Positions 1 through 50,900 of a stretch of DNA of 64,000 bases are shown here, one piece after another. Each line of letters starts with the position of its first letter. Positions within the stretch are counted from its first letter, which is position 1. The stretch spans positions 56,877,283 to 56,941,282 of the forward strand of contig OX387182.1 of the NCBI GenBank assembly GCA_947561395.2, written 5' to 3'. This DNA is from Buxus sempervirens. Taxonomy: Eukaryota > Streptophyta > Magnoliopsida > Buxales > Buxaceae. The notes under the pieces were generated by a model that saw only the letters and a list, made by a program, of their open reading frames with translations, ran no database searches and was not told the DNA's origin. Both the position numbers and the translations under genes were made by a program.

Positions 1-1
1 C

Positions 2-1379: not shown

Positions 1380-1415
1380 TCATTCTCATCTTTTTCATCA
1401 TTTTCCACTGCATTC
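1380..1415 (-). pseudogene. CSC1-like last exon, truncated copy
   Basis: About 36 bp match the start of the CSC1-like terminal exon seen complete at 47841-47996 and 31488-31643. The acceptor is still AG (TTAG instead of CTCAG). The reading begins NAVENDE and is cut after about a dozen codons by the copia LTR. It marks the left-most visible unit of the tandem array and shows that the array extended further left before the copia insertion. Confidence 0.7.
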
Positions 1416-2672
1416 TAAGCACAAACAGCATACAATAACACCAGTTTAAGAAAATTGTAGGATATTTAAAGCCCATCAATAAGTTTACTACATTGGAGTA
1501 CTCATCCAAAAAAAAAAAAGCATCAGCATATTCTATCTTGTGTGACCATTAATGCATTTGTACATATTACAGTTGTAACAACAAGTTACTTTCCATTACA
1601 AGAGGCAGTCAAGTGCTAATTCGTTATCCACTGGGTTATAAGTCAAACTGCGAACCATTTAGCAAATCAAAATATAATAATAAGACTATTATGTGGATTA
1701 CGATTAGGGTTCCTCTAATTAAAAGTTTTTTTTCTTTTCCTAAATATCCCTTGGCCCCAAACATCAACATCTCTTTCAAATTTTTGCCCAATTTTTTTTT
1801 TTTTTTGGGTAATTATACGATACCTAATTGCATTAATTTCTTCACATACCACTTGATTTAGGACTCATTAATCAAGTAATAGTACTAAAACACCCTTTTA
1901 TTCTCATAATGGGCTGCACACTTGGCTTTTTATATCTAACCTAGGTCTAACATAAGTCCAATTGAATTTTTCTTAAGCCCAAGAAGGTTAATTAATTAAT
2001 TATTTATTTAATCAATTATACTAATTAGGAAAAGACAAAATCAACCCTAGGTTATTTCTAGGTCATTACAAAATATTACTTCATTTTGTATTTCATTTCT
2101 AGCAAGCATGCAGCATCTCCTCTAGTTGGCTTGGTTCCAGTCCACAAACTGGAGGTTATTGAGAGAGGTTAGCAAAATTCATAAGACCAAGCAAAATATG
2201 AGTTTTAGTGAACTCTTCACTCATAGTTGAATGCTTGAACTACGAACCAAGTCAGTCCTCTCTTTCTCAATTGCCTCCTTCAGAATTATCCAGCCACATA
2301 CTTGAGGGCTTATCTTAATAGTTTTGCATACAAAGAGTCAAACAGGTAACATGGAGTAGTTATATTTCAATGATTTATCAAGAAAAATACCTTGATTTCT
2401 AAAAAGGATAAATTGAGGGGGAAAAATATGCTAAATTTTAATGCCCTATTATTTTCCAAAAACATACACAAACCTTTCCTTCCACTTTCATGACTTCACT
2501 AAAAAAATGCGAAAGTTTAATCATAATTCAAGCAGGGAGAAGGTGTTGTTTCTATCCATAATCCCTTAAATTAGATCAAAATTAGGAAAAAAGATAAATA
2601 AATACCCCTGGTGGCGAAATACCACATATCGATATTTATGATTTCAATAGCATAACGTGGCATGCCAGCAAA
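1416..2672. repeat. Array unit 1: duplicated last-intron segment of the CSC1-like gene
   Basis: The segment aligns closely with 31644-35962 (which has a CACTA insertion) and 47997-49272 (the parental intron). Shared landmarks include the A run after CATCC, GTGCTAATTCGTTATCCACTGG, the poly-T block followed by GGGTAATTATACGATACC, and the closing CATAACGTGGCATGCCAGCAAA. It contains no gene. Similarity to the parental intron stops at the junction near 2672. Confidence 0.8.
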
Positions 2673-3190
2673 TTGTAGCAAAAGTGTATGAAGCTCTGAA
2701 TCCATGTTTAATATCCCAATTTGTGCTTGCTTATCTGCAAAATAATTCTTATTTGAAGCTCAAAGTCAGAGGAGATCAGGAAGAGTAGGATATCAGAAGA
2801 GTTAAAAAGTGTCTTGAGATACCTGCATATCTTTAATGGGAAGAATATTACATTCAGAACTAGAGATGATGGTAAAGGTGATTGTGTCATAATCGGTTTG
2901 GGTTATCATGACATGAGCAAAAGGATAATGCAGTGCAAACTTGGTTAAAACCAAGAAGATTCAGTAAGGGTGGTCCATTCTATATTTTAAACCCACAGAA
3001 TTTTGTGGTTAACCGTCTGAAACCCATGTTTTAAACAGGTTTAGATTAACCTGAGTGTTAATGAACTGTCATAGCAACCCAAAGGCATGTAAAACCAGAT
3101 GGATTCTGGCATATTGGCATATCAAGTTAGAAATTGAACACAACAGGGATCCAATTAGATTCTTGAATTTCTGTTAAAAGCTAACAAATA
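2673..3190. repeat. Orphan copy of the DUF247 3' flank (unit 1)
   Basis: From the junction at about 2673, this stretch resembles the downstream flank of the DUF247 genes (6325-6840 and 43105-43600). Shared pieces include ATCCATGTTTAATA, TCTGCAAAATAATTCT, GAGTTAAAAAGTGTCTT and TTAGATTAACCTGAGTGTT. Similarity is clear but lower than between the two gene flanks. No DUF247 coding sequence precedes it, so it is a flank without its gene. Confidence 0.7.
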
Positions 3191-4304
3191 ACAACGAAAG
3201 AAAACAAGGGTTCAACTGTAGATGATCTGATTCCGTAGATGTGTTAGCACTTACAAAAGCAGTTGACGGAAACGTTGCACAGACATATATACTATTAATA
3301 AAGTTTACTAGTAAAGTAAACTGAGGAATATATCCCCAGGTTTTGGCCATCCTTTTTCCTTCTATTTTTTTGTTTCTCAAAGATTTTTCTCTACAACCAA
3401 AATAATCCCGAACTATACCACCACATCTACTTTGAAATTTAAACCTTACTCCTACTTCTATGCTAAGTTATTGGGTTGAGAACATGCAAAATGCATGTGC
3501 CACCGCTAGTTTCACAAAAAAGAAGGAAAGAAAAACCCATAAAAAACTCAGCCATCACAACCTCAAAAACCAATACTTCATTGCCGTCTTTTCCTGCCGG
3601 AGAAAGAAAGAAGAAATGAATTAAAAGATTGAAGGTGGAGAGCAGAGGGCATAAAATTAAATGAGACGGCAATCTCGTTAGAAATTAGGGTTTTTTTAAG
3701 TTTGCTTTCGTCTAAACAAAATCAGGGCAAATAAGTAATTTTATAATGAAGGGTGTTTTGGTCTTTTGTTATGCACACAAGCAACGGAGTTTAATCATAA
3801 ATTGACAGTAGACGGGTGTGGCTAATGGCTATACATTGCGCAAATCTCAAGGGAGGTGAGTATCTGTAAATTTCCCTATTTTTTTGGAAAGAAATGTATT
3901 AAAAAAAGTCAATATGAGAAACACCAATGTGAGGGAACTTTTCATGCCTTCCATGTAACATTTGCAGTGCTCTCTAGAATGATCCTATATGATAACTAAA
4001 AGCTACTATTCTTTTTTCTATTTTCCAACTTTCATCAGAAAATATCAAGTTATAGTTAAATAACCAATTCTTCTATTGATTATCTATATCTGAATTGAAA
4101 TTTACCTTTTCAATTCAGATATCAAATTATAAAATATCAAGTTATAGTGAAAACTATAACTTGAAATTTATAGTGAAATTTACTATACCTTTTCATCACA
4201 AAATATCAAGTTATGGTGAAATTTATTAATTATTGTTTTTTTATTTCTGAACAGTTTTTAAGACATCGTTTCTAACAGTATTGTGCCTAATCCCCCACAC
4301 AACA
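3191..4304. other. Gene-free spacer with short direct and inverted repeats
   Basis: No convincing coding region was found. Part of it (about 3870-3960) again resembles the distal DUF247 3' flank (compare 7020-7095). At 4036-4222 a motif containing AAAATATCAAGTTATAG occurs three times. Around 4089-4124 there is an inverted repeat with arms TCTGAATTGAAA and TTTTCAATTCAGA. The middle of the spacer is not matched by unit 2. Confidence 0.5.
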
Positions 4305-4668
4305 CAGAATCCCTTGCATAGTGCACTTTAAGTAATAAACAATACAAGAACCTAGCCAAAGTGAAGCATACAACTTTGTATCTGATATAAGAAATGAATA
4401 AAATTTGATCACACCTCTATATTTGGAATGTTCTTGGAAGAGAATCCCCCACGATATCTTTGCTTCCTGGGGTGAAAAAATATAGGATCCCTCCATGTAG
4501 GATCACTGGCTATTATTATATATTAGTTGGGACTCGGGAGTCTTGATCTTTTGTGCCAAGGAACCATATTCTATAGCATTTGCACGGTTCAATTAATGCT
4601 TGGAACGTGAGAAAAAGAAGATCCTCCAAAACTGTTATTTATGTTTGGTATGATACCATCAACTGTAA

Positions 4669-4675
4669 TATAAAA
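4669..4675 (+). promoter_or_regulatory. TATA-like box of DUF247 gene 1
   Basis: TATAAAA lies 50 bp upstream of the end of the leader and about 56 bp upstream of the ATG at 4725. The same box and spacing occur before the second copy (41441-41447). The position implies a short leader of roughly 25 nt. This is inference from sequence only. Confidence 0.45.
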
Positions 4676-4724
4676 TTGCAAGACACTCCAATCTCAATCT
4701 TCCCTGCTACCTTTGTGTGAGACA

Positions 4725-6092
4725 ATGGAACTGGCTGAAGAAACGACCACACAAATCCCCAACACCAGTGATGACACCGAGAGTAATGTATTCACAGAAG
4801 AAGGCAGTACAAGTTTCAGTACCAGCAACGACATAGAGTGGTTAATTTCTATACCGCCGGATGGAGGGGAGGAGCTCGGAACTGCAGAATCTCAAAAGCC
4901 CAAGATACAGCAGGTTCCTAAGATGCTGCGGCATCTCTACCGCGAGGACAATTGTTTTGATCCCATGATAGTTTCCATCGGTCCTTACCACCATGGAAAG
5001 CCAGAGCTCCAGCTAGCAGAGAAGATCAAGATTACGACTGCACGACAATTTGTGTGGGACAGAAGCAACAAAAACGTTGATGCCTTCTACAAGAGTGTTG
5101 CAGAAGTGTCCAGCAATGCAAGAGGGTGCTACACTGCAGGTTCTACAACTCGGTTCAGTGACAAAGAATTTGCGGATATGATGTTCCTTGATGGTTGTTT
5201 CATTCTGCAGCTCATTGATTGCATGATGAACAAGAAGCGCGAAGGCATAAAAATGAAATGTCACTACATTGCATTTGTGCTGAGAGACTTGTTCTTGCTG
5301 GAGAACCAACTCCCTTTTGTAGTTCTTCAGGCTCTAATGAGCATGAAATTCCCTGGAGATCAAGGGATTGCCATGGTTAAGGCTTTTATCAAGCAGCGAA
5401 TTAGGGCCCCAGAGTCCGTATCTAAGGAGTCAGGTGCTGAACCTCTTCATCTTCTTGAACTTATGAGAACTGAGCTCCTTGGAAGAAGTTCAACTACTGA
5501 TTCTCCTCTTCCGGAAGGTGCCGGTGGGCAAACCTTTCGATCAGTGAATGAGCTTAAAACTGCTGGTATTAAGTTCAAGAAGAGCAATACTTCGTGTTTT
5601 AATGACATCAGCTTCAAACCAGGCATCATTTCTGGAACATTGAGGCTCCCTCCAGTAGCCATTGATGATTCAAGCAAGGCCAAGTTCTTGAACTTGATTG
5701 CCTATGAAGCATGTCCTGATACCCCTGATGACTATGGGATTACCTCTTACATCTGTTTCATGGATAAACTCATTGATCTTCCAAGTGATGTGAAGGAGCT
5801 TAGATCAAAAGGCATAGTTCAAAACTTCGTCGGCAGCGATGAAGAAGTGGCCAAGTTGTTCAATGAGATTGCTACTGAATTGGTGCCAAATCCACAAACC
5901 TACGCAACAGTAGGAGATGGTATTGAGAAGATATACAAGAACAAACGCATAAACTGGATGACTGAAATGTGTCACAAACATTGCAGTACCCCATGGAAAA
6001 TTATCGCGTTACTTGCTGGAATCTATGTTCTCGTCATAAGCACTGTCCAGACCCATTTCACTATCCTCCCTCTAAAGAAGGATGGCCACTAA
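4725..6092 (+). CDS. DUF247 (UPF0481-like) membrane protein, copy 1
   Basis: A single-exon gene of 455 residues starts at ATG 4725; the frame is open slightly upstream (to TTG 4713) but that is not a usual plant start. The family signature MIVSIGPYHHG is at residues 81-91, preceded by the LRHLYREDNCFDP block. The usual FLLENQLPF motif lies in the middle. A single membrane segment (about residues 424-446) is close to the C terminus, followed by a short basic tail. Length and layout fit the DUF247 family, which is plant-specific. Its biochemical role is unknown; in grasses two DUF247 genes act at the S and Z self-incompatibility loci, but nothing here shows that role. No stops or frameshifts. 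The tandem paralog is at 41497-42867; the two proteins differ at roughly 25-30 positions, mostly in the first 60 percent. Confidence 0.9.
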   Translation: MELAEETTTQIPNTSDDTESNVFTEEGSTSFSTSNDIEWLISIPPDGGEELGTAESQKPKIQQVPKMLRHLYREDNCFDPMIVSIGPYHHGKPELQLAEKIKITTARQFVWDRSNKNVDAFYKSVAEVSSNARGCYTAGSTTRFSDKEFADMMFLDGCFILQLIDCMMNKKREGIKMKCHYIAFVLRDLFLLENQLPFVVLQALMSMKFPGDQGIAMVKAFIKQRIRAPESVSKESGAEPLHLLELMRTELLGRSSTTDSPLPEGAGGQTFRSVNELKTAGIKFKKSNTSCFNDISFKPGIISGTLRLPPVAIDDSSKAKFLNLIAYEACPDTPDDYGITSYICFMDKLIDLPSDVKELRSKGIVQNFVGSDEEVAKLFNEIATELVPNPQTYATVGDGIEKIYKNKRINWMTEMCHKHCSTPWKIIALLAGIYVLVISTVQTHFTILPLKKDGH

Positions 6093-7336
6093 TCATTGAT
6101 GATGGTTGGTGGTTCAACTTACCATCTTTTCCACCCCCGAAAAGAGCATGGTCATCTGATTCCAACCTCATTTCTGAAACCATTATTCTTTCTGTTCTTA
6201 AGAATTTCTAGCTTTTACATGATTTGATTGAAGGAATGGATTTTCTTTTTCCCTTTCTTTTTTCTGCACAATAGTGGTGGAACTACGAACTGTTTATTTT
6301 CAATGAATGTACCATTTTAAAGCTACAAATCCATGTTTAATAACCAATTTGAGGTTGCATAATTATCTGCAAAATAATTCTCATTTAAAGCACATTGCTA
6401 GAGGAGATCAGGATGAGCAGGATATTGGAAAGAGTTAAAAAGTGTCTTCAGATACCCTGCGTATGTTTAATGTGAAGGATATTACGAACATTGAAAACTA
6501 GATATAGTAGTAAAGGTAATTGTATCATAATTGGTTTGGGTTGTCACGACATGAGCAACAGTATAATGCAATCCAAACTTTGCTTAAACCGGGGAAGATT
6601 CAGTAAGGGTGGTTCATTTTATATTCTAAACCCACAGAATTTTATGGTTAACCCATCTGAAACCCCATCCCCCGGGTTTTCAACAGGTTTAGATTAACCT
6701 GAGTGTTCATGAAATATGTCATACCAACCCAAAAGCCATGTAAAACCAGATGGATTCCTGTCAAATTAGAAGTTGCACACAGCAAGGATCCAATAGATGA
6801 GCTAATGAATAATAAGAATAAAAGAAAACAAAGCCACTGTTCACCATAAGGGCACAGACATGACTTTTCAGATCCTTCATTATTTTGCAGTTACAGAATT
6901 GAATACTATGTCATTTTACTGAAAATTGAAGCCATGGTTTTAAATTTTGGATTTCAAAGAAAATTTCTATTGTTACAAAATGAAAAATTTTGAAGGAAAT
7001 TTCACTTTGTAATAGTTTTCTGTAAGAATATTTTTTAAAAAAAAAATCCAAGTTATGAGAAATATGAATGTGACGTAAATTTTCATGCCTTCTATTTCTA
7101 TATAGCAAGAAAAATAGGGGTAAATTTGATTAAATTTCAAAAAATAAAAAATAAAAAAATAAATAGAAAGTGTTGAAGAAGGTATATTCCCAACCTGTCT
7201 CTACTTTCCACCCATTTGAATTTCAGAATGCAAGTTCCCATTAAAATAATAATTATTATTATTAACATCCGAGACTGCAAATTCCATACTAGCTTACTTG
7301 TCTAACAAGATTTTAAAACTGTGTGAGCAACCCTAC
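6093..7336. other. 3' flank of DUF247 gene 1
   Basis: The flank matches 42868-44101 almost throughout, so it belongs to the duplicated unit. It is AT-rich with small A and T runs. The orphan flank copies at 2673-3190 and 35963-36600 are diverged relatives. No gene was recognised. An open frame at 5969-6211 overlaps the gene end and is not supported. Confidence 0.6.
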
Positions 7337-7537
7337 CTTGTCTTTAATTGGGTCTGAGAATGACCAAGGGAAAATGGCAACGCAGCAGCATAGGCAGATC
7401 AATACACTATAATTCGCTAGATCCTTGGTCTCAGTTCCAGGCAGGGTCAAAGCATTCATGATCACTGGTGTACAAATAGGGGCAGCATGTCCGGACATTA
7501 TGCTTGGATCAAGTACCAATCTATTCTCTCTAGTTTG
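7337..7537 (-). other. Exon-like ORF, unrecognised, copy 1
   Basis: An open stretch of 67 codons on the minus strand is bounded by an acceptor-like TTCAG and a donor-like AAG|GTAGGG. It reads QTRENRLVLDPSIMSGHAAP... and ends ...FSDPIKDK. The tandem copy at 44102-44302 has the same length, frame and splice-like borders, with about six amino-acid changes. I do not recognise the family. It could be one exon of a gene or a captured gene piece. Just beyond it (7490-7620) a short piece around GCATGTCCGGACATTATGCTTGG is locally repeated in unit 1 only. Confidence 0.35.
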
Positions 7538-7671
7538 CTGAAGATGCTATTCATTTCTTTCCATAAATCATTCATAGTAACTGCACAGCATGTCCGGACA
7601 TTATGCTTGGACATTATGCTTGGTCAAAGGCCTTTAATCCTATGGAAGGAAGTAAATCCAGTATCACCATC

Positions 7672-9669
7672 TGTAACGATTTAAAAAAAAAAAAAAAACT
7701 TTGGAACTTTGACCAGTCAAACTTTGACCGGTCAAGTTGCTTTTGTTTTAAGACTTATGGGTGAGCACACACACACCCCTAGTTGCACACACACACACAA
7801 TCCCTTCCAAAAGCAAACCCTAGCCGTCATTTACTAAAATCTATTTCAAACTCTCCCTTCACCTCACGCCCTCTTCTTCCCCTCTCTCCCATTTCACCCT
7901 TTTGCCATTATCCCCTTCTCCTCTCCTTCATCCCACACACTTCCCTTTTTCTCTCACATCTCCTTATATCTTAACCTCCTTTATTTAATGTTCTTGGGAT
8001 TAACAAAAGAAGACAAAGGAGGGGAAGAATATAATTTCAAGGCTTCATACAAGTAAGTGGGATTAATCCAACTTATATGATTATGGGCATATTTCCTTTA
8101 AATTTGGTTTGTTTTGTTTTCCTTGTGTATGATGACGGAGAACCACACAATTTTTTTATGGAATGAAAATCATGATAATTTTTGGTGAAACTATTGTTCA
8201 TATTCATAATTTTTTTTATCATTTAAAGGCACCGTGGGGAAATATTTTGTTGTTATGTGAATATGTATGTATTGATGATTTCTAAATTTTTTGATATTCG
8301 AATTTCGGGTATATGCAGATTTATTATTTACAAATTTTTATTGGTTGTATGCAAATTGTTTTATTGGTTTGAATGGGGTTGACGTATGCCTATTTTCACC
8401 TTGTTGGTTATATGCAGATTTTTATTGGTTTGATTGGACTTGAACACCTTTGCACAATTTTTATATTGATTTCAAATTTGTGTGGGTACGTTGTGCAATC
8501 TCCAGACATGAGGGTTGAAGGTTTAGGTATGTTAAAGAAATGTACAGTGGTAAGGTACTGTGAACAAAAGAAAAGTAGGATGGCATCATCCTTCTTTATG
8601 GATTGGTGGTACAAGTATAATAAATAAGATGGATTTTGGTATGCGTGCTATAAGAGAATAAAAGAGAGTGGTGAATAGGCTTAGCATACTTTATAAGTCT
8701 ACAACCCCTATAAAGACTAGGCAATGAATTCTTTGACTTGCTTTTGTATAAAAAGGAATTTAAATAAAGAAAGAAAGAATTGGGTTGTCTATTTTTATTT
8801 ATTGTTTAGGTGAGATAGAAGAGAGAGAATGTAGAGAGGGAAAATGAGAAAGAGAGTTAAAGGAGTAAATGGGTTGGCTATTTTGTTTTAGGTGAGGTGG
8901 AAGAGAGATAAAGAGATGGGGTTGGCTATTTTGTCTTTTAGTTAAGGTGGAAGAGAGAGAAGGAGATAGGGTTGTTTCATGAACCATAGCATAACAATGT
9001 GTGCATACACCCTATTGTTGCTTATATATTTGAAATTATATATGAGTTGGTGCAATGTTTAATAATTGTCAAATTTGAATCAAAGCATGGCATGTTGAGT
9101 TGGTAATTTTTAAATGAAACATGATTATATGGATATTAGTACTACTAGTATCTTGATACTAGTCTAGTACCCAGCACCAAGTGTTGTTGGGAGATATAAT
9201 TTTTGTATTGCTGGCACGAGTTGCTAGTTCAGTACCCAGCATTTTGAGATGTCTGGGATGATGATTAAATTGTACTGCTAGTCATGCTAGTTCAGTACCC
9301 AGTGTGTGATTAACCACTGGGATGATTGTGATGCGATTGTACTGCTAGTGGCAAGGGTTCACTAGTCCAGTACCCAATATGAAGACTGGCAGACACCTAT
9401 ATGGTGGTACTTCTAGTAGTGAGGCCACACACTAGTTAAGTAGTCTGTCAGGGACGTTCTATTGGGAGTGTGTTTACTGCTAGTCTATACTAGTTCAGTA
9501 CCCAGTGAGGGACACCCATTGGAAGAGGATATTGAAATAATTGTACTGTTAGCAGACATAATGCTAATTCAGTACCCAGCGTGACCTAGATGTCTACTGG
9601 GATGTGAGGATGATATTTGGTGGTTAATATTTCTTTACATTCGGTTATTTTATTTTATTTTCTGCAAGG
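7672..9669 (+). repeat. Left part of the outer solo LTR
   Basis: The part begins TGTAACGATT followed by an A15-16 run, then two near copies of TTGACC(A/G)GTCAA, a short CA repeat (about 7768-7800) and a C/T-rich stretch to about 7980. No real gene was found; short open frames here lack coding features. The last five bases, CAAGG (9665-9669), are the left TSD of the nested Tat element. Confidence 0.65.
9139..9600. repeat. Degenerate tandem repeats with inverted core (solo LTR)
   Basis: About seven degenerate units of roughly 56-74 bp are marked by CTAGTTCAGTACCCAG (near 9160, 9224, 9286, 9355, 9430, 9486 and 9560). In several units GTACTGCTAGT on one side pairs with ACTAGTTCAGTAC on the other, so each could fold as a hairpin. 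Confidence 0.7.
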
Positions 9670-9759
9670 TGTAGACACCCCAAATTGCACAAACAATCAT
9701 CAAAAATCATTATCTCCTGGAAAGCCAGCACAGAATTTGAAGAAAATAAACTTTTACCT

Positions 9760-9903
9760 GTATCCGGATTGAGTATCCGGATACAAGTACCCTTTCCCGT
9801 ATCCGGATAGTCATACCGGATACGTGTGAGCCTTAGCGTATCCGGTACCATGTACCGGATACCTTAAGGCCCTTTGTTATCCGGTCTGATATACCGGATA
9901 CCT
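9760..9903. repeat. Inverted GTATCCGG/CCGGATAC array in the 5' LTR
   Basis: Four successive inverted pairs of TATCCGG and CCGGATA lie within about 145 bp. The third is a perfect pair (GTATCCGGTAC/GTACCGGATAC around a 3-base loop). The array sits 150-300 bp upstream of the LTR TATA box. The same array occurs in the 3' LTR at about 25394-25537. Confidence 0.85.
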
Positions 9904-10056
9904 TAAGTTTGCTCAAAATTAGGGTTTTCCGAGAGCTTTTCACTTTTACCATCATGTCCCTCATTAAATGAGGGGAAATCGCGGAAATAACCTTAGGGTT
10001 TAGGTTGGAGGGTTCTAGACATTAATTTGTGTCTACCAATGACCTTAGCCCTTGCC

Positions 10057-10064
10057 TATAAATA
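10057..10064 (+). promoter_or_regulatory. TATA box of the 5' LTR
   Basis: TATAAATA in the context CTTGCCTATAAATAGGAG is a good plant TATA box. Transcription would begin about 25-35 bp downstream. The 3' LTR has the same box at 25692-25699. Confidence 0.65.
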
Positions 10065-11943
10065 GGAGCCTCCTCCTTGAGCAAATGGGACACAACTCTT
10101 GTTTTGAATTCTCGCAAAGAAGAACTCCAAGAGAAGAAGGAAACCGCTGTGGAATCGCCTCCAGCACTCAGGTAAGCCTCAACTTTTCTTTTTATTTTCT
10201 GTCTTTACATTCCTAGATCTAGATCTCTTCTTCTACCTTTCTGTAGTGTAAAGCCTTGTTTGTATGTGTGGAAATCCTTCCCCGGCTCAAAGTATCTCAA
10301 GACTCCCCTAGCCGTAAAACGTGAAGGCGGATCTAGGAGAAACGAGACTGGGGATTGACCCTAGTGCTAGAACCTATGTAACATAAGGCCTTTTTTATTG
10401 ATTGTAAACCGTTCCATATTCAAAGTACCCTTGATTATCTTAAAGAGAACAGAGGGAAACGATAATGGAACGGAACCCTAGGCTATGCTAGAACCTATTT
10501 TATTGAATCTATATGCATGTGTATGGATCTTGCTAGGTTTTTTTCACTTTTGCACACATATCACTATTTTGGCGGGATAGGCTCATATTTGGGGTTTATT
10601 GCATTTATTGTGATAAATCTCAAATAAATGGCCTCAATCAATTCTGGAATGCCTTTCGGATGATTTTGAAGTATTTGTGTTCATCTTACACGAATTTCAT
10701 TTTTTATCAATTTTCGGATTTGGTTTTTACTCAAAAATGGCTTAGCTTGACAGCACCTGTACCCCTACTTCGGACGTCCGTAACTTCATCATCCGGATGA
10801 ATTTTGGGACGATTTCAGAACCATGGGAAAGGTGAGGCTGTCTAGTTTATGTCCACCAAATTTCATGATGTTCTATCTAGCCGATTTTTGACACCTCTCT
10901 GTCGAAGTTGAGTGGACAGTTCAGGTCCAAGTACAGAACTTGTCACTTCGACGGACCGCCATGTGTTCGTTTTAAGTCCGATTCAAGTGGTTTTTATTTC
11001 TGAGTACTCCTTTATGAGTCTATTTTCAAATCCAGTTGGTTTCATAATTTTTGGATTCCATTTGAATTATTGGTAGCCGATTTACTCAGAACTGCTCATT
11101 TGCATTTTTCTGGGTAAATCTGTGATCTTCGGGGCCTGTTCGGGAGACCACCCAAGGCACGTCCGAAGGGATTTTTGTATGAGGCTAGTTTCTGTTGAAA
11201 GATGGCCATACAGACTTCAATCACACCAAATTTCACGGATTTCTATGTAGTGGATTTTTCTAGACAATTTTCCAAAGTTGCCCACTTATCACTTTTAAAA
11301 ATCCCCAACAGCAACTTCAAAGGAGCATAACTCCTAGATTTTTCATCGGAATGAAGTGAAATTTTGCATGAGAGTCTTATTTACCCTAATCTTTCAAATG
11401 GATTTGGTTTGGTTCAATTCAGAATTGGATTTGAATGATTTTAAGGCAAATGGCGTACTTTTTACCGAATTTTCCGGATTTGATTCAACTTGGTTTTGAT
11501 CAACTTGTGCTTTGATTTCTATCTTTTGAGATATTCCAGAAGTGATATTGACATAAGAGAAGATCTAAAATCCATTTGGATCTTCATGTGAAAATATCAT
11601 ACATTGTTCCTTTTTCAAGGCTTTTTCATGATTTTTAGCAAGCTTTCTTACTTGATTTTTGCATGAACATACACTTGGCAACCACTTCGTGTGGATGAAT
11701 GGGGGTGCCTAACACCTTCCCCCGTTCATAATCTAATCCCCTTACCCATCTCTGGACTTGATTTTCAAGTAGGGTTATTTTTACCCTAGAATTTGTCTTT
11801 TGGTTATTTTGCCTATTTTTGAATCCTTGGTGTCCATTCTCACCCCAAAATCATGAATGGTGGCGACTCTCCCACATTTGCGTTGAGCCCGTGTGTTGAC
11901 GGAGGGACGATCACTCCGGTGATTTTTTCCCATGTCTCACAAC

Positions 11944-11961
11944 TGGCGACTCTGCTGGGGA
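11944..11961 (+). other. Primer binding site of the Tat element
   Basis: TGGCGACTCTGCTGGGGA starts two bases after the 5' LTR, where minus-strand synthesis is primed. This sequence type is found in Tat/Ogre elements and, from memory, pairs with the 3' end of a tRNA-Arg; a tRNA search would settle this. Confidence 0.8.
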
Positions 11962-13740
11962 CTTGTGGATTTAAGCCATTTTGTGTATGTTCATGCTTTT
12001 CTATACTTTTGGATGCTTGCTATTTTGATTACTCTATTTGGGGCATATTGTTACATTTCAAATCAGATTGGTATGCTTTGGATAATGGCATAAGCATGTT
12101 GCTTGATTTTTGTTGAAAAGAAAACCCATATTGTGATATGACTTGGCTATATTATGAGATAGCATGTGTTATTTTGGGGTTTGAAGGCCATGAGCTAAAA
12201 AAAAATACAATATTTGGAATCTGGGAATTTTATGTGTATTTTGGATATTCAAGCATGTTTTGCCATGAATAAAGTTTTTTTGTGCTTAATGTTTGTAAGA
12301 TGCCATGCCTTTGATTTGGGGGTATAGGAAGACTTGATTTGAGCATGAAAGTAAAGAAAAAAAAATCTGGAAATTTAGTGCATATTTTGGGAGTTTTAAA
12401 GCATGCTTTTACCATCAAAACTTTTCTTGTATCATGTCAAGTAGTGCTAAATTTTTAGGCATCAACTTGGGGTAGAAATGGTATACTTTGAGCATGAAAA
12501 AGAGCATGAAATCTGGAATTCTAGGAATGCTTTTGGGTTTCAAGCATGCTTACATGAGTTGATTGTTGTTTGCACAAATAACATGTTTTGTATACCACTT
12601 TTTGGGCATGTAATATTTTTGTGCATATTTGGTACTTGCTTGCTTGTATTTAGCTTCATTATTTTGTCATATATGCCTTGACTTGAAATGAATGCATGGC
12701 TACGAAAAAGAGTGGCAAGGGGCTGGGACGTTGTGAATGTTACCACAATTTTAAATTGCACTTGAGCACTTGAAACAATTTGCACAGCCTACCCTTTACC
12801 TATTAGGAAGTTGAACCATGAATGTGTGTAGCTTGGCGCACCGAGGTCGTGACTTCGGAAAGCGAAAGTGAAAACATTTACCTTAGAATTTGGGTCAATG
12901 ATGTGATGACAATGGGATCTGTGATTCGATTCCGGGCATCACTAGACTTGAGTTCTAAGTTGCCAATTAAGCCAAAACCCAAAAACCATACGCTTGAAGG
13001 TGGAGAAACACGTTTTCGGCTAAAAGCACACAATTGCGTTTGGGGAAATTGGGTGTAAATGTGGGAAGGCCGTTTGCATGTTTTACAGGCTAATGTGAAT
13101 ACCATATTGAATGAAGATAATACAAGGTGGCAAGGTAAAGCCAAGTCCTTTTCATAAATTTGGGGAATTTTGCAAGTATTATGCCCAAGCCCAATTTGGG
13201 GCAAGTTTTGAAGGTTAAATTAAGGTGAACATCAATTGGGAATAAAAAAAAACTAATCTGGTGAAAAAATAAGTCAAAAAAGGCCATTTCGGCAATAACC
13301 GGCAACTCAGGCCGGTTAATAACAGCTCTAATCGTATCCGGTACATATTTCCGGATACAAAGACATATGCGGATATCCGGTTAGGTTAACCGGATACAGT
13401 AAGGCATATTCTTATCCGGAATAGTGTACCGGATACATTCAAAAAATGCACAAATTGGCTGTTCAGCCCAAATTTTCAGAATAAAATGCCTAAAACACTG
13501 TGGATAATCCTTAGGCACCCCGAAAAGAACATAAGAAATGTTCCCAAAAATACAAAATCAAAAAAAAAATACAAAAGAAAAAAAACAAAAAAAGAATAAA
13601 ATAAAATATTCTTTCAGGGTTTAACCTAAGTCTGAAAATCAAAGAGGAAACCAAGGTGTCATATTTTTTTTGACACCAACTCAACTCAAACATGTGTCAA
13701 TCAAACTCTGGAACTTGAAAACTGAGAAAATTCAGCAAAT
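11962..13740. other. Non-coding leader of the Tat element
   Basis: No convincing gene was found between the PBS and the tandem array. Frames up to about 108 codons occur on both strands but show no domain. Ogre elements can have an extra ORF upstream of gag; none is recognised here. A run of A-rich sequence lies at about 13556-13612. Confidence 0.5.
13333..13438. repeat. Internal GTATCCGG/CCGGATAC array (leader)
   Basis: Three more inverted pairs of TATCCGG and CCGGATA, the same motif as in both LTRs, lie in the untranslated leader about 3.4 kb downstream of the LTR array. The spacers between arms differ from those in the LTR. Confidence 0.8.
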
Positions 13741-14775: not shown

Positions 14776-15007
14776 ACAAAATCAAAAAACAAAAAAAAAA
14801 AACAAAACAAAAAAAAAACAAAACAAAAAAAAAAGCACAAAAAAATCTGGATTGGTGTTCACCTAACCTACTGGTTTACATGTATAGGGGTGTGACTCAA
14901 GTTAAATGGAAGCTGACATGTTCTATTCATTTTTTCCTCAGGTACATTCAACCTAGGTGCACTTATTTGCAGTCATTGCTCCCGTGACCAGATCCAAAGC
15001 AAGAGCC

Positions 15008-24415: not shown

Positions 24416-24418
24416 ATC

Positions 24419-27577: not shown

Positions 27578-27582
27578 CAAGG

Positions 27583-37508: not shown

Positions 37509-40263
37509 CTGAAACATAAAAGTGAGACATGAATTTTGATCTTCGCATTACTTTATTCACTTTTTCTTTAAATAATCAATAGCACTTCTAGTTATAGAGC
37601 TAGTAAGGAAATCAATAACACTTCTAGTTATAAATATGACTAAATCATTCTTGTGGTTGAAACCAATAAACAAACCCAACAAAAAGAGAGAAAGAGAATG
37701 TGATTTAAATCATGATCCTTGGGATCAAATGTAAAAAGAATAACTATAAGTGTCATCTGACCTCATGAGTGATGGATCAGGTGGGCTTTGGGTCTTACCA
37801 TCCGACACCAAAACAGCACACATGACCCATGTGATCAAGTATTTAGTTCTTTCATAAGCACGACAGAAGATGCAATGAAACCAAAAGAATAAGGACTCTA
37901 CACCCTAAAGTATTTAGTTCCAGAAGCTGAGAACATGTGAAGAGAAGGAAAAGAGAAGAACAGGGAGCTCCCTTCAGTCCAAAACAGAGCATTGAGGCAG
38001 TAAGGCAAAGATCATGGACTGTTTTGGGCTGGAAGGAACCCCCACTTCTGCAATTTTCTTACTGAAACAAGCTCATGGAGCTAACAAAGAGAAGGCAAGG
38101 AGATTGAAGCTGGGTGCAACAGAAGGAAAAGGAAGAGATACAAGTTTGCATTCACAAAAGAATTTTTGTAGTAGTCTTTAATTTCTAAAACAGCTGCCTT
38201 ACTCTTTCACACTCATTTTTCTTTTCTTGGATGTGAAAAGGGCTTTAGCCATTTAAGGCAACTGAACTTGACATGGATGGACCACAGCTGCAACATGGTG
38301 AGGCTATTGCATATCACGTTGCTATTCTAATTGCCAAATTACAGAGATTAACACATACATGGCACCTTGTGGGCATGGGCATGAAAGTAAAAAATGAAAA
38401 AAGGGCATGGAAACAACCTTTAGTATATTTAGCTAGAGTATCCTTTAAGAAAACATGGCATGGAAACACTGAAATTATAAACTAAGATGGTGATGGATCT
38501 CGTTCAAGTTGTTTATGGTGGCTACTAGGGCTAAATGATGTGAACCATAATGATTACAACATGACAATCTATTCCTAAGCTACTGACTTCAAATTCGTCA
38601 TACAGGGTAAAACTTAAAATACCTAAAAAAAATTAAAATGAAAACTTAAATCCTTCTTATAAAAAAATTTGAATATAAATAATTCAAATATAAAACACCT
38701 AAAGACAATGTTTCCAAACTCAAATCCAAAATGATGGCCAAAAGAAGGGTAAAATATTCTCATGCTAAGGTTTGCTGACATAAAAATGTGGGATTAGTGT
38801 GTGGAAATACTAGAAAAAAAAGGATAAGTTTACCTTCTAAAGTCAAGCTGTTACATAAATAGGAGATAAGATGACCAAATTATGTCAAGACTATTTAAGC
38901 ATGTAAAAAGAGTACCTAAGGAGGTTGCTAACTTACTAGTAGATAGTAAGAAGCAATACATATTGCAGGATCTAAAAAGTCAAAAGGAAGACAAAAAAGA
39001 GCCTAAATGGAGCTACCTTATAAATAAATAAGTACAAATAACCTGATCAATGACTTGTTTTTCACCAAAGAGACTTTGTATATCAAAATTCATACTGTCA
39101 GCCACAAATAGTTGGAATAAGGCCTTTTAGCTTTTGTTTCATCTCTATTTGTAACTATTAATTAAGCAACCAACAGCACCAATTCCATTCATCAATTTTT
39201 AACATTCCATCATAAGCTTGCTGAATTCAAAACCTTGCTAATATTGCCACAAAAAGTAAATGAAGAGCAAAGCAAAGTTGGCAATGCTGACCCCAACAAA
39301 ACAAATCCAAACCACGGCTACAGAAAATATGGTAAAGAGAGTGATGGGAGTGTGTGGAAAACTGGTCTGAGCTACATTCCACTAGAAAAATAAAAGAATA
39401 ACAACAAAGAAGATGAAGAACTACTAGTAAGAATATCTAAAAAAATAACCTTTCTTGCCGGGCAACTCCTTACAGTCTTTCACATAGAGTTCTCGAATGT
39501 TGACTACAACCCTTGCTTGCCAACTTCTCAGCTTTACCTTCCTACCCTTTAAAAACTACACACTTAACAAAAAACATAAATGAGAAACAGAGTTAAAATG
39601 GTAAAGCAAAAAAAATGAGGGAACCGCCTCATCCACCTCCTAAGCACCATTAAAACAAAACAAAATTCAGAATGAATAAAGAGAACGACCTCACATATAA
39701 CGATCTCGTTACCGTCGTCGTCATGTTTCCTTGCGTAAGAGAGAAAGCAGCATTGATTGAAGAAAAACCTTTTGCGCTTCTCAGCTCACCGTTATGCAAC
39801 AGCTATGGTAGAACAAGAACAGATTCTTCCGGATTTAGAAGGAAACATTTCTCGATTACCTCTAGCCACGATGATAATGGTCGTTGAAACCCCTTTGATT
39901 TCAGCGTGTGGCGATGGAGGCTTCCTCTGTGTTGAAGAGGAAGGATCGAGGAGGAAGGGTCGACTGCTGTTCGTTGAAGAAAAAGGGTGGATTAATGTAT
40001 TTACATTTCATGCCACTCTTTAAAAAGCTCACTCATTTTACAAGTTTGCCACCGCAAAAACGCACAAAACTCATTCCTCAAATCTGGAAATGGCATCAGG
40101 GGCAATTTTAGAAAACAATGGTTTTTCTCATTCTCATTTTGGGAGAATGAGTTTTGGCACACTTACCAAACACCTTTCTATCTCTCAAAATTAATGATAG
40201 GCTTTGGAACTCATTCCAAGGCCTGGAATGAGTTCCCAAAAATGAAAGCCAAACGAGACCTTA

Positions 40264-41440
40264 ACTATTGTATCTCTAGCCACATGTTGGTTAAAAGAAA
40301 AGTTAGACATAGTCGACCCACTAATAGAAATTTGGATTTACCGAAGGTCTGTAACACCATGTTTAGGGAGACAAGTCTGCAAATGTTTTTATACATAGCT
40401 TGTACCACCAGAACTTTTGTAGCAAAAGTGTATTTTTCAATGCAAACAAATTTCCCTAGGTCCAATCCCTTTTGAATCTTAAATTTTAAAATATTTCCAG
40501 AGTATAGAAGTCCTTGTTGTTTTGCTTCTGGGCCTCGAAAACGATGTCTATTTAATGGTAACATCTGGATTAGTATCAAAAGGTAGGGACCCATCAAATC
40601 CTGGGTTTGTATGGATTGATTAATAAATTCCATTTCTTCAGTTGATGGAATTGCCTAGGATCCATTTTCAAATAGGAAAACAAAGCTTAATTAATTAGAT
40701 AATATAAATAATAAGTTTTTATGGTAATACAGCATATAAACAAAATAAAAGAAGAGAGATACCCATATATATAATATTTATAAGGAATTTTAAATAAGAA
40801 GAATACCCTTTTTGAGGCCTAAGCTTGAACCAGTTTTGGACCTTTTGGTTCAACCTTTGGAGACCACTTTTCACGTTTGATGCTTGGAGAATTTAATAAA
40901 GAATAGTTACAATTGGAAAGCTGGATAATTGAAAGCTTGAATGCATTAATTACAATGTAAAATAGTGGGAGAAAATTGGTGTAATTTGGAAATATAGGCA
41001 TTTCTAAGCAGCTTTTTTTTTTAATTAATTTACAAGTATATCACCAAACTAGTTGTTATTTGACTGTTGGAAGGATAGAAATGATAGATCAAAAAATAAA
41101 AAGAACATTTTTTAAGGCTAACTGTTTGTGGCCCAGCACGTAACAGTTACAGAATCCCTTGCATGGTGCACTTAAGTGATAAACAATACAAGAACCTAGC
41201 CAAAGTGAAGCAAACAACTTTCTATCTGATATAAGAAATGAATAAAATTTGATCACACCTCTATATTTGGAATGTTCTTGGAAGAGAATCCCCCACGATA
41301 TCTTTGCTTCGTGGGGTGACAAATAAAGAACATATTCTATAACATTTACATGGTTCAATTAATGCTTGGAAGGTGAGAAAAAGAAGATGAAGATCCTCCA
41401 AAACTGTTATTTATGTTTGGTATGATACCATCAACTGTAA
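40264..41440. other. Gene-free region upstream of DUF247 gene 2
   Basis: Up to about 41137 the sequence has no counterpart in unit 1 that I could find. From about 41150 it matches the unit 1 promoter side (4305 onward). No gene was recognised. Confidence 0.5.
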
Positions 41441-41447
41441 TATAAAA
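41441..41447 (+). promoter_or_regulatory. TATA-like box of DUF247 gene 2
   Basis: TATAAAA lies about 56 bp before the ATG at 41497, the same as in copy 1. Confidence 0.45.
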
Positions 41448-41496
41448 TTGCAAGACACTCCAATCTCAATCTTCCCTGCTACCTTTGCGTGAGACA

Positions 41497-42867
41497 ATGG
41501 AACGGGCAGTGATGTATTCACAATTGACGACCACACAAATCCCCATCACCAGTGATGACACCAAGAGTAATGTATTCACAGAAGAAGGCAGTACAACTTT
41601 CATTACCAGCAACGACATAGAGTGGTTAATTTCTATACCGCCCGATGGAGGGGAGGAGCTCGGAACTGCAGAATCTCAAAAGCCCAAGATACAGCATGTT
41701 CCTAAGATGCTGCGGCATCTCTACCGCGAGGACAATTGTTTTGATCCCATGATAGTTTCCATCGGTCCTTACCACCATGGAAAGCCAGAGCTCCAGCTAG
41801 CAGAGAAGATAAAGATTACGACTGCACGACAATTTGTGTGGGGCAGAAGCAACAAAAACGTTGATGCCTTCTACAAGAGTGTGGCAGAAGTGTCCAGCAA
41901 TGCAAGAGCGTGCTACACTGCAGATTCTACAACTCGGTTCAGTGACAAAGAATTCGCGGATATGATGTTCCTTGATGGTTGTTTCATTCTGAATCTCATT
42001 GATTGCATGATGAACAAGAAGCGCGAAGGCATAAAAATGAAATGTCACCACATTGCATTTGTGCTAAGAGACTTGTTCTTGCTGGAGAACCAACTCCCTT
42101 TTGTAGTTCTTCAGGCTCTAATGAGCATGAAATTCTCTGGAGATCAAGGGATTGCCATGGTTAAGGCTTTTATCAAGCGGCAAATTAGGACCCCAGCGTC
42201 CCCATCCGAGGAGTCAGGTGCTGAACCTCTTCATCTTCTTGAACTTATGAGAACTGAGCTCCTTGGAAGTTCAACTACAGATTCTCCTCTTCCGGAAGGT
42301 GCCAGTGGGCAAACCTTTCGATCAGTGAAGGAGCTTAAAACCGCTGGTATTAAGTTCAAGACGAGCAATACTTCGTGTTTTAATGACATCAGCTTCAAAC
42401 CAGGCATCATTTCTGGAACATTGAGGCTCCCTCCAGTAGCCATTGATGATTCAAGCAAGGCCAAGTTCTTGAACTTGATTGCCTATGAAGCATGTCCTGA
42501 TACCCCTGATGACTATGGGATTACCTCTTACATCTGTTTCATGGATAAACTCATTGATCTTCCAAGTGATGTGAAGGAGCTTAGATCAAAAGGCATAGTT
42601 CAAAACTTCGTCGGCAGCGATGAAGAAGCGGCCAAGTTGTTCAATGAGATTGCTACTGAATTGGTGCCAAATCCACAAACCTACGCAACAGTAGGAGATG
42701 GTATTGAGAAGATATACAAGAACAAACGCATAAGCTGGATGACTGAAATGTGCCACAAAAATTGCAGTACCCCATGGAAAATTATCGCGTTACTTGCTGG
42801 AATCTATGTTCTCGTCTTAAGCACTGTCCAGACCCATTTCACTATCCTCCCTCTAAAGAACGATTGA
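41497..42867 (+). CDS. DUF247 (UPF0481-like) membrane protein, copy 2
   Basis: An intact single-exon paralog of 456 residues starts at ATG 41497. Compared with copy 1 the first residues are rewritten (MERAVMYSQL against MELAEE), the DUF247 signature MIVSIGPYHHG is unchanged, and one R is missing after ELLG. The membrane segment near the C terminus is kept and the end is PLKND. From about 42363 to 42620 the DNA is identical to copy 1, while the first 880 bp differ at about 25 or more places. Both copies are open, so both may be expressed. The role of the family is unknown outside grass self-incompatibility. Confidence 0.9.
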   Translation: MERAVMYSQLTTTQIPITSDDTKSNVFTEEGSTTFITSNDIEWLISIPPDGGEELGTAESQKPKIQHVPKMLRHLYREDNCFDPMIVSIGPYHHGKPELQLAEKIKITTARQFVWGRSNKNVDAFYKSVAEVSSNARACYTADSTTRFSDKEFADMMFLDGCFILNLIDCMMNKKREGIKMKCHHIAFVLRDLFLLENQLPFVVLQALMSMKFSGDQGIAMVKAFIKRQIRTPASPSEESGAEPLHLLELMRTELLGSSTTDSPLPEGASGQTFRSVKELKTAGIKFKTSNTSCFNDISFKPGIISGTLRLPPVAIDDSSKAKFLNLIAYEACPDTPDDYGITSYICFMDKLIDLPSDVKELRSKGIVQNFVGSDEEAAKLFNEIATELVPNPQTYATVGDGIEKIYKNKRISWMTEMCHKNCSTPWKIIALLAGIYVLVLSTVQTHFTILPLKND

Positions 42868-44101
42868 CACTAATCATTGATGATGGTGAGAGGTTCAAGT
42901 TACCATCTTTTCCACCCCCCAAAAGAACATGGTCATCTGATTTCAACCTCATTTCTGAAACCATTATTCTTTCTGTTCTTAAGGATTTCTACCTTTTACA
43001 TAATTTGATTGAAGGAATGGATTTTCTTCTTCCCTTACTTTCTTCTGCACAGTAGTGGCAGAACTACGAACTGTTTATTTTCAATGAATGTACCATTTTA
43101 AAGCTATGAATCCATGTTTAATAACCAATTTGAGGTTGCATAATTATCTGCAAAATAATTCTCATTTAAAGCACATTGCTAGAGGAGATCAGGAAGGGCA
43201 GGATATTGGAAAGAGTTAAAAAGTGTCTTCAGATACCCTGCGTATGTTTAATGTGAAGGATATTACGTACATTGAAAACTAGATATAGTAGTAAAGGTAA
43301 TTGTATCATAATTGGTTTGGGTTGTCATGACATGAGCAACAGTATAATGCAATCAAAACTTTGCTTAACCGGGGAACACTCAATAAGGGTGGTGCATTTT
43401 ATATTCTAAACCCCCAGAATTGTATGGTTAACCCATCTTAAACCCCATCCCCAGGGTTTTAAACAGGTTTAGATCAACCTGAGTGTTAATGAAATATGTC
43501 ATACCAACCCAAAAGCCATGTAAAACCAGATGGATATATTCCTGTCAAATTAGAAGTTGCAGACAAGGATCCAATAGATGAGCTAATGAATAATAAGAAT
43601 AGGAATAAAAGAAAACATAGCCACTGTACACTATAAGGGCACAGACATGACTTTTCAGATCCTTCATTATTTGGCAGTTATAGAATTGAATACTATGTCA
43701 TTTTACTGATAATTGAAGCCATGGTTTTAAATTGTGGATTTCAAAGAAAATTTCCATTGTTTCAAAATGAAAAATTTTGAAGGAAATTTTACTTTGTAAT
43801 AGTTTTCTGTAAGAATATTTTAAAAAAAATCAAGTTATGAGAAATATGAATGTGACGTAAATTTTCATGCCTTCTATTTCTATATAACAAGAAAAATAGG
43901 GGTAAATTTGATTAAATTTCAAAAATAAATAGAAATTGTTGAAGAAGGTATATTCCCACCCTGTCTCTACTTTCCACCCATTTGAATTTCAGAATGCAAG
44001 TTCCCATTAAAATAATTATTATTATTATTAACATCCGAGACTGCAAATTCCATGCTAGCTTACTTGTCTAAAAGATTTTAGAACTGTGTGAGCAACCCTA
44101 C
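42868..44101. other. 3' flank of DUF247 gene 2
   Basis: The flank is collinear with 6093-7336, with small indels only. No gene was recognised. Confidence 0.6.
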
Positions 44102-44302
44102 CTTATCTTTAATTGGGTCTGAGAATGCCCAAGGGAACATGGCAATGCAGCGGCATAGGCAGATCAATACACTATAATTCGCTAGATCCTTAGTCTCAGT
44201 TCCAGGCAGGGTCAAAGCATTTATGATCACAGATGTACAAATGGGGGCAGCATGTCCGGACATTATGCTTGGATCAAGTACCAATCTATTCTCTCTAGTT
44301 TG
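44102..44302 (-). other. Exon-like ORF, unrecognised, copy 2
   Basis: Same 67-codon block as at 7337-7537, with acceptor-like TTCAG and donor-like AAG|GTAGGG. The changes between copies include T/S, M/I, C/R and S/A. Upstream (about 44333-44352) a second short exon-like piece between TGTGCAG and GTAAGA is visible. I do not recognise the protein. Confidence 0.35.
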
Positions 44303-44443
44303 CTGAAGATGTTATTCATTTCTTACCATAAATCATTCATAGTAACTGCACAGAGAACAAGCATTAATTTACAAGATGAGCCCAGATAAATAGATGCAAA
44401 GGCCTTTAGTCCTATGGAAGGAAGTGAATCCAGTATCACCATC

Positions 44444-47400: not shown

Positions 47401-47840
47401 CACCCAACAAATTTTAGAAGTTTTTCTATGGATATTTTTTGCATCTCTTTTTTGTGTTTGGATAGCTGGAGAGTCATAAGACAGGCTGCATCGTCACACA
47501 AGAAATAAGACTTTCCCCACTTGACCCCTCCGTATTTCACAACCTTCACTCCCATTTTCTTCCACTTTTCTTTTACAACCAAATGATCTAATGAAAAGTA
47601 ACTTCCCAAAACCCAAATGGATCCTCAGTTATAATCTAAAGGAGAAGAAAGTGGGCAGAGATGTTCATGAAGTAGCAGACATTTTTTATTTTTCTGAAAG
47701 AATGCTATAGGAAATTTTAGTACGGAGCAGTCAATAAAGTTCAACATAACTCCTTCATAGCCAAATAAACTTCTGATAAGTAATTGTCGAACTTGAATTG
47801 CAGAGGGGGAGCAATAAAAAGGCCAAAATCTTGGTTGAAA
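44444..47840. repeat. Array unit 2: AT-rich spacer downstream of DUF247
   Basis: Counterpart of 28254-31487, beginning directly after the empty target site (TATCACCATCACACATATC). It carries the same internal duplication (about 44455 and 45038). It holds about 85 bp near 47447-47530 that unit 1 lacks, making a minus-strand open frame (47253-47609) of 118 codons containing KWKKMGVKVVKYGG and SYFLCDDAACLMTL. That frame looks protein-like but is unrecognised and broken in unit 1. Confidence 0.6.
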
Positions 47841-47996
47841 TCATGCCGAAGAAACTAGTGGCTGTGTGGAGCTTGGCTCTAGAGAAGTGAAGTTCACAGG
47901 CCGCAAACAAGGAGGGAAATAAGCATTGATTGCATTTTCCGGGTTCATTTCCAGCAGTTCATCCTTCTCATCTTGTTCATCATTTTCCACTGCATT
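47841..47996 (-). CDS. CSC1-like gene, last exon
   Basis: After acceptor TGTGCTCAG, 51 codons (NAVENDEQDEKDELLEMNP...QPLVSSA) and TGA. It forms the acidic cytosolic tail, comparable to AVEIDEEDEKNGEME... of At3g54510 as I recall it. Copies of this exon alone are at 31488-31643 and 1380-1415. Confidence 0.82.
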   Translation of the reverse strand, partial: NAVENDEQDEKDELLEMNPENAINAYFPPCLRPVNFTSLEPSSTQPLVSSA

Positions 47997-50900
47997 CTGA
48001 GCACAAACAGCATACAATAACACCAGTTTAAGAAAAATTGTAGGATATCTAAAGCCCATCAATAAGTTTACTAGATTGGAGTACTCATCCCAAAAAAAAA
48101 AAGCATTACCATATTCTATCTTGTGTGACCAATAATGCATTTGTACATATTACAGGTGTAACAACAAGTTACTTTCCATTACAAGAGGCAGTCAAGTGCT
48201 CATTCGTTATCCACTGGGTTATAAGTCAAACCGCGAACCCATTAGCAAATCAAAATATAATAATAAGACTTTTATGTGGATTAGGATTAGGGTTTCTCAA
48301 ATTAAAAGTTTTTTTTTCCTAAATATCCTTGGGCCCAAACATCAACATCTCTTTCAAATTTTTGCCCCTTTTTTTTGGGTAATTATACGATACCTAATTG
48401 CATTAGTTCTTCAAATACCACTTGATTTAGGACTTATTAATCAAGTAATAGTACTAAAACAACCTATTATTCTCATAATGGGCTGCACACCTGGCTTTTT
48501 AGATCTAACCTAGGTCTAACATAAGTCCAATTGAATTTTTCTTAAGCCCAAGAAGGTTAATTATTTAATCAATTATACTAATTAGGAAAAGACAAAATTA
48601 ACCCTAGGTTATTTCTAGGTCATTACAAAATGTCAGTTCATTTTGTATTTCCTCTTGGTTTATGAAGATCAAACAAAATTTTTTAGTATTTCATTTCTAG
48701 CAAGCATGCAGCATCTCCTCTAGTTGGCTTGGTTTCAGTCCACAAACTGGAGGTTATTGAGAGAGGTTAGCAAAATTCATAAGACCAAGCAAAATAAGAG
48801 TTTTAGTGAACTCTTCACCCATAGTTGAATGTTTGAAATATGAACCAAGTCAGTCCTCTCTTTCTCAACTGCCTCCTTCAGAATTATCCAGCCACATATT
48901 TGAGGGCTTATCTTAATAGTTTTGCATACAAAGAGTCAAACAGATAACATGGAGCAGTTATATTTCAATGATTTGTCAAGAAAAATACCTTGATTTCTAA
49001 AAAGGATAAATTGAGGGGAAAAAAATATGCTAAATTTTAATGCCCTATTATTTTCCATACACGTACACAAACCTTGCCTTCTACTTTCATGACTTGACTA
49101 AAAAAATGCGAAAGTTTAATCATAATGCAATCAGGGACAAGGTGTTGTTTCTATCCATAATCCCTTAAATTAGATCAAAATTAGGAAAAAAGATAAATAG
49201 AGACAATTGGTGGCGAAATACCACATATCGATATTTATGATTTCAATAGCATAACGTGGCATGCCAGCAAATTTCACCATTTCGAATAAGGGGCATTAAT
49301 TAGGGTCAAAATGTTTATATCATGAAATTCCCTCATGCCACCAAAATTTCAATAGCGTAAGGGAATTTTGCATGTGGTCCCGAATCACCATTTAAAGTAC
49401 AATTTCAAGGGAAATGTCACCTCATTTCGTCAACATTTCCTCCATTCTTCTTCTCCATTTCTTTAGCTAAGAAAAAACCCTCAAGATCCTTTTTTCCACC
49501 CCCAACAACTTAGAAAACACTCATTTATGAGTATTTCGTGAATGTTCTTATATACATTTGTTGAAGATTTAGAGCCCCTCAAGAACAGAAATCATCTGCA
49601 CCCAATTTATCGTGCACCCGTGCACCAACCATTTGCAATTGGTGCATCCCACTTAAAAAAATCCTCTCTCTCTTGAAATGATTGAACGCACCAATCAAAA
49701 TGAATGGGTGCATGGGCGTATGAGAAATTGGGTGCATATGATACATGCTCGCGTCTCAGAAGCTCACACTTGAGGTAAATAGAGATTTTTGGTTTTGTGT
49801 AGTTATTTGACTTATATTTTTATCTTTCTTTTGTGTCACTTTGATTTATGCATATTTCTTTTAGGTGGTGTATTATACTATCATTTAAACCATCTAAAAG
49901 TTTTATTTAAAAGATTTCAACAAAATTTCCTCACAATTCCAGCATACCAGCAAAATTTTCTATCATGCCAGCAAAGTTTGGCAAAATCAAAATGTAAAAC
50001 CTTACTGTATATTAACAAAGTCAAGGTGCAGTTTTTCACTTGGCAACAATAGCTATAGGTAGAAGAAAAAAGAGCCTTAGGAAACTAGTTCCTTGTGTTC
50101 TTTCAAAACGACCTTATAAGAAAAGGGTGCAAAAGAAGAAAACTTCCGAACTGGACTAACAAAACCTCATGGCCATATATAAAGCAAACTAAACCTATTT
50201 GCTTACCATGCAAAAGTTGAAAGAAACAACTGCATATTTAAAATCAGTTAGGCCGCCTTAAGAGCGTAACAGCAAGACAAAGCCCAGGATACTAAAGGGC
50301 ATTTTGCTCATCTTTAGCATGGGTTTGAGAAAAAAGAATTCAGCAAATAGAGGCACCTCGAAAGTTTGCAACTGGCAGTACTTGGCACACAAAAATGAGA
50401 ACATTAAAGATACAAACTGCATAGGTGACAGGCTTTCGGCAAGTGAAAGGTGATGAAGAGTGATGGACGATGGCTAATCAAGGAAAGAAAGCTGGATATG
50501 GTGGCATCATTAGGAACCACGACAGCACCTAGTTATGTGCTTTTGTAATCAAGCAGCAAGCAGAAGATATCTAGTTGATTGATTTTGTGATGGCACTCAA
50601 ACTTAAGTAGATAAAGGGCATGCAAAGTAGTTTTGCTCATAGTGAATCAACTCCAAACTCCTTGCGACTTGAGCACTGTCATGTGCTGTATCATGGGGAA
50701 AGCCAAGTTTCTGGGAAAGCATAATATTAAGGGGCTGACACAGATAGATAATGACAGTTTCAGCGTTTTATGTAGCATTCCCCATTGTGATGAATACAAA
50801 TAAAGATTTCCATGATCAACAGCATGACTTACATGTATATGCAATGAATCGCTTTTCTAACTCGAAGTTAATTCTCATGCTTTGTCAAAATATTGAGTGT

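Follow-up and report, generated by a model that had tools for sequence, protein, structure and literature searches.

The window analysed here is a stretch of 64,000 nucleotides of Buxus sempervirens DNA (assembly GCA_947561395.2, contig OX387182.1, positions 56,877,283 to 56,941,282 of the forward strand). Self-alignment shows two repeat units of about 9.6 kb each net of insertions, preceded by the end of another, all in register. In a full unit, an intact DUF247 gene lies on the plus strand; after it, on the minus strand, comes a duplicate of the final exon of a CSC1/OSCA gene together with part of that gene's last intron. The rightmost last exon (exon C) belongs to the resident HYP1-type CSC1/OSCA gene, which is oriented towards the array. 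Because of this orientation, the gene still has its own last exon, and the additional copies came to lie downstream as passengers. An earlier note on this DNA had described an array of about 9.6 kb in which each unit carries a DUF247 gene and a stranded CSC1-like last exon, and this is confirmed by the self-alignment and by a three-way alignment of the copies. Several blastn matches of the window to itself have an E-value of 0.0 over spans of 0.9 to 3.1 kb, which excludes chance as the source of the repeats. The head-to-tail copies in register, with a join common to both, identify a tandem segmental duplication. It is very probably an ordinary one with one end inside a gene, the stranded exons being an inert by-product. 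The extra exons are most likely a side effect of tandem duplication and not a novel type of gene end.

The copies of the last exon and intron piece align over positions 1380-2672 (A), 31608-32509 and 35606-35962 (B, divided by an insertion) and 47961-49271 (C); the last exons of B and C are complete (Table 1). Net of insertions, successive exons are 9618 and 9647 bases apart, and the distances between successive join positions are 9671 and 9612 bases. The earlier note had given about 9.64 and 9.65 kb. Between the join flank and the promoter side of the DUF247 gene, positions 3208-4303 of unit 1 and 40261-41148 of unit 2 do not align. As about 1 kb to the left of each DUF247 gene differs in this way, the near-equal unit lengths are partly due to chance.

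The DUF247 genes are the sole complete genes recognised within the units. Both belong to PF03140, with 346.9 and 343.8 bits against a gathering cut-off of 24.8 and coverage of profile positions 1-400 and 1-401 of 401. They are intronless, each with a single open reading frame (ORF), and stand about 35 kb apart as assembled because of the insertions. Their coding sequences differ at 43 of 1359 aligned sites (Kimura two-parameter distance, K2P, 0.032), with dN of about 0.032 and dS of 0.040-0.042, a single pair with too few changes for reading selection. Each unit holds 20 ORFs of at least 40 amino acids, with 11 matching pairs between the units. Each unit also has two copies of a direct repeat of about 250 bp (28265-28515 and 28838-29086; 44450-44718 and 45028-45289), which are about 86% alike; this repeat is thus older than the duplication.

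The motif CATGCCAGCAAA closes the common intron piece at 2672, 35962 and 49271. Past this motif, copies A and B are alike and pass into a DUF247 3′ flank, whereas copy C differs and continues as native intron beyond 49271. One or two further bases also match between A and C, so the break is placed only to within about 2 bases. The earlier note had the intron piece stop at about 2672, 35962 and 49272 at one motif, which agrees to within one base, and its proposal that the duplication broke inside the last CSC1-like intron is upheld by the alignment, the break being identical in both joined units. Self-alignment had been singled out beforehand as the place where differing breakpoints would speak against the array, and it gave identical breakpoints for the units. 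As J1 and J2 fall at the same base and enter the same DUF247 3′ flank, they point to a single illegitimate join that was probably made once and afterwards multiplied. The units could instead stem from independent breaks at a hotspot in the intron, such as a repeated motif, and the break does sit in a 15-nt motif of which the native intron has four copies (87-100% identity). However, the DUF247 side also starts at the same place in both units, so that both ends would need to agree, and independent breaks are very improbable.

The flank at the join is not that of the genes within the units. It differs from the flanks of the two intact DUF247 genes by a K2P of 0.23-0.26, whereas those two flanks differ from each other by 0.055. 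An older DUF247 paralogue was thus probably present on the left before the segment was duplicated. The earlier statement that the join runs into DUF247 flank therefore holds, but its attribution to the units' own DUF247 genes does not. Searched at protein level with DUF247 gene 2, the window gave only the two genes and not the coding part of the older paralogue. To the left of DUF247 gene 1, about 3893-3954 within the non-aligning stretch matches the distal DUF247 3′ flank at 80-81%, so part of that stretch may be further old flank.

Further sequence features were recorded around the joins. The four occurrences of the 15-nt motif, CATGCCAGCAAATTT, lie within 49260-49978 of the native intron and are 87-100% alike, and the break fell at the first of them. 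Two places, 49260 and 49964, have the 12-nt core of this motif without mismatch. The 11-nt sequence CCCCTGGTGGC occurs in copies A and B and not as such in copy C; it has an inverted match at 51873 and also matches 16322, inside a retroelement. At J1, 17 nt (2673-2689) recur exactly at 40417-40433, the longest such match in 100 order-2 random windows being 15, and templated filler DNA is possible there. A transposon was considered as the cause of the intron break and rejected, as no convincing terminal repeats were seen among the 25 of 34 inverted pairs inspected.

The proposed duplicated segment would start in the 3′ flank of the older DUF247 gene, include the younger one and end midway through the last intron of the HYP1-type gene. 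Judging from the join, this segment would have been duplicated head to tail by an illegitimate (non-homologous) event. Further copies with the same join could then have arisen by unequal exchange between the repeats. The extra last exons would be passengers and, since the CSC1-like gene retains its own end, the event could be neutral for that gene.

The two units differ at 336 of 7793 aligned sites (K2P 0.0445). For the intron tail, K2P is 0.034 between A and B, 0.046 between A and C and 0.032 between B and C, which suggests copies of similar age. None of the insertions within the aligned parts is common to different copies; each either entered after the copying or has been lost from one copy. 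These differences bear on whether the array is an artefact of assembly, for example two haplotypes placed end to end. A single assembly lies behind the array, and a frame break near a T run in the resident gene shows that sequence errors are possible. However, a haplotype mis-join is not expected to make the same join twice, and J1 and J2 differ by substitutions and a small duplication. The substitution differences of 3-5% between copies and the unshared insertions also speak against a mis-join, which is highly unlikely.

Several observations weigh against an ordinary duplication with inert exons. Between the units, 36 of 498 sites of the trimmed join flank differ (untrimmed, 50 of 556), against 336 of 7793 elsewhere (Fisher p 0.005), and the B-C tail differs at 19 of 828 sites on the exon side against 20 of 416 on the join side (p 0.024); the choice of these tests followed inspection of the data, and the p values are uncorrected. 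Such uneven divergence is not predicted by a single round of copying without later exchange; gene conversion or other exchange between the units would fit it. Exon B, for its part, shares 40 identical bases before the acceptor with exon C, has an open frame and a stop, and is followed by AATAAA 151 nt past the stop, as is exon C. As these features are kept, exon B could be spliced. It is also less diverged than its neighbours, which differ at 9 of 241 sites on the 3′ side and 9 of 304 on the intron side.

Along the intron tail, the sites private to A, C and B number 28, 27 and 11 and are unevenly spread. A chimera or a topology was not read from the three tails, as three sequences without an outgroup yield branch lengths only.

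It has been proposed that the extra exons are either alternative 3′ ends or inert. In the former case, the transcript would read through exon C and unit 2 and splice into exon B, whose acceptor region, frame, stop and AATAAA are intact and whose divergence is slightly lower than that of its neighbours. Yet such a transcript must run past the stop and AATAAA that exon C itself has, and must skip 16 kb that include a 3.6-kb insertion and an antisense DUF247 gene. Exons B and C differ at 3 of 156 sites (K2P 0.0195), two of them amino-acid changing, so the product would differ at two residues only. Constraint specific to exon B is not significant when its 3 of 156 is set against the 336 of 7793 for the units as a whole (Fisher p 0.16, Poisson p 0.097), and the resident gene has an upstream frame break as assembled. 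It is thus very improbable that exon B serves as an alternative last exon. Also very improbable is the reading that the array gives the CSC1-like gene a series of usable downstream last exons, with read-through across the antisense DUF247 genes coupling the two families and copy number setting the outcome. Of the two options, inertness appears better supported by the sequence. The stranded exons are most likely without function and decaying, one being already split by a retrotransposon.

The split exon is exon A, previously placed at 1380-1415 and described as truncated. It is indeed a partial copy, although its start is corrected to 1414. The truncation is not due to the duplication; a Copia-type long terminal repeat (LTR) interrupts the exon at 1379/1380. 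The remainder of exon A and of its unit may be situated to the left of the window.

The exons of the resident gene have HYP1 (PDB 8t57) as their best sequence match, including the first part of the last exon. The match falls in two pieces, residues 239-519 (E 5e-51) and 524-693 (E 3e-39), and supports a HYP1-type channel over the channel region. In a Pfam search with one ORF alone, PHM7_cyt was over its cut-off and RSN1_7TM was under it (21.8 against 28.7 bits). The reading frame is not continuous, as it shifts within exon 55477-55756 as assembled. The change lies in a T run at 55663-55673, with HYP1 matched on both sides within the exon; a pseudogene or a sequence error at the T run is possible. 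The 64-kb window yielded no 5′ end for the gene.

Table 1. Features of the array, the resident gene and the inserted elements, in positions of the window.
Feature	Position	Strand	Basis
3′ part of LTR retrotransposon, presumably Copia-type, in exon copy A	1..1379	+	read by eye
Exon copy A, first 35 nt of last exon, acceptor TAG, broken by LTR	1380..1414	-	alignment
Intron piece, copy A	1415..2672	-	alignment
Join J1, CSC1-like intron / DUF247 3′ flank	2672..2673	.	alignment
3′ flank of older DUF247 paralogue, unit 1	2691..3190	+	alignment
DUF247 promoter side, gene and 3′ flank, unit 1	4304..7671	+	alignment
DUF247 gene 1, intact ORF, 455 aa	4725..6092	+	Pfam PF03140, E 2.7e-103
Nested insertion, TGTAACG...GTGACA element with CCATC on both sides	7672..28253	.	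sequence read
Exon copy B, full-length last exon with AG acceptor, open frame and stop; AATAAA at 31337	31488..31643	-	alignment
Intron piece, copy B, interrupted by insertion 32510-35605	31644..35962	-	alignment
Insertion in intron copy B, begins CACTACAAA	32510..35605	.	alignment
Join J2, same base as J1	35962..35963	.	alignment
3′ flank of older DUF247 paralogue, unit 2	35991..36516	+	alignment
Insertion, presumably DNA-transposon-like, inverted ends GGCCTCGTTTGGCTTTCATT and near complement, TTA on both sides	36622..40260	.	by eye
DUF247 promoter side, gene and 3′ flank, unit 2	41149..44443	+	alignment
DUF247 gene 2, intact ORF, 456 aa	41497..42867	+	Pfam PF03140, E 2.3e-102
Exon C, resident gene's own last exon; AATAAA at 47690	47841..47996	-	alignment and HYP1 match
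Native counterpart of copied intron piece	47997..49271	-	alignment
CSC1-like penultimate exon	52079..52312	-	HYP1 match
CSC1-like exon, 280 nt, frame changes near 55663-55673	55477..55756	-	HYP1 match
Further CSC1-like exons 56116-56395, 59393-59691, 63256-63450	56116..63450	-	HYP1 match

The array has been interrupted by mobile elements. The element at the left edge has an RNase H end and a 3′ LTR at about 979-1379 (TG...CA), with its 5′ end outside the window. The nested insertion contains a full LTR element, with LTRs at 9670-11941 and 25304-27577 and CAAGG on both sides. Its LTR pair differs at 4 of 2272 sites, far below the divergence of the repeat units, which marks a recent element by sequence comparison. 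The outer TGTAACG...GTGACA element is about 2.7 kb and perhaps a solo LTR. No matching right end was seen by eye for the insertion beginning CACTACAAA, and the adjoining 23 bp target of A and C is gone in B.

The locus offers a worked case of tandem array growth in which the join is seen nearly to the base and was then, by the proposed course, multiplied. Pieces of a neighbouring gene are carried along in the array, and transposons split the copies. For annotation, this cautions that lone last exons close to a tandem array may be passengers and not genes.

In partial-gene tandem duplication, a duplicated block has one end inside a gene. The array resembles this in that one end lies in an intron, the copy is part of a gene and the original keeps its end; unlike the general case, the passenger is merely a terminal exon and part of an intron. 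A literature search for partial-gene tandem duplication with all terms demanded together returned no paper, and another returned none combining DUF247 and CSC1-like genes in the library searched; two papers there name both DUF247 and OSCA, and 17 mention DUF247 and tandem. The exons of the resident gene are like those of HYP1 (PDB 8t57), but the frame break as assembled is unlike it.

Paired DUF247 genes are described at grass self-incompatibility loci in the portions seen of PMC13033167. The present locus is similar in having two close DUF247 genes with single open reading frames, but these are recent duplicates (coding K2P 0.032) and about 35 kb apart as assembled. A grass-type locus also includes a gene for a small secreted stigma peptide and is marked by high allelic polymorphism and by expression in pollen and stigma; the likeness here is that of the DUF247 pair alone. 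For rice, an excerpt of PMC11184719 gives tandem duplication for only 3 of 21 duplicated DUF247 pairs. Tandem growth of the family is already known from oak, according to the available passages of PMC9018854: Quercus lobata has a tandem block of 34 complete and 22 partial DUF247 genes with 17 additional genes. These passages mention no CSC1-like neighbour, whereas here a CSC1-like gene adjoins the array. DUF247 genes are tandemly multiplied in both, but the Buxus array shows two complete genes in the window and a repeat unit that is resolved to its join.

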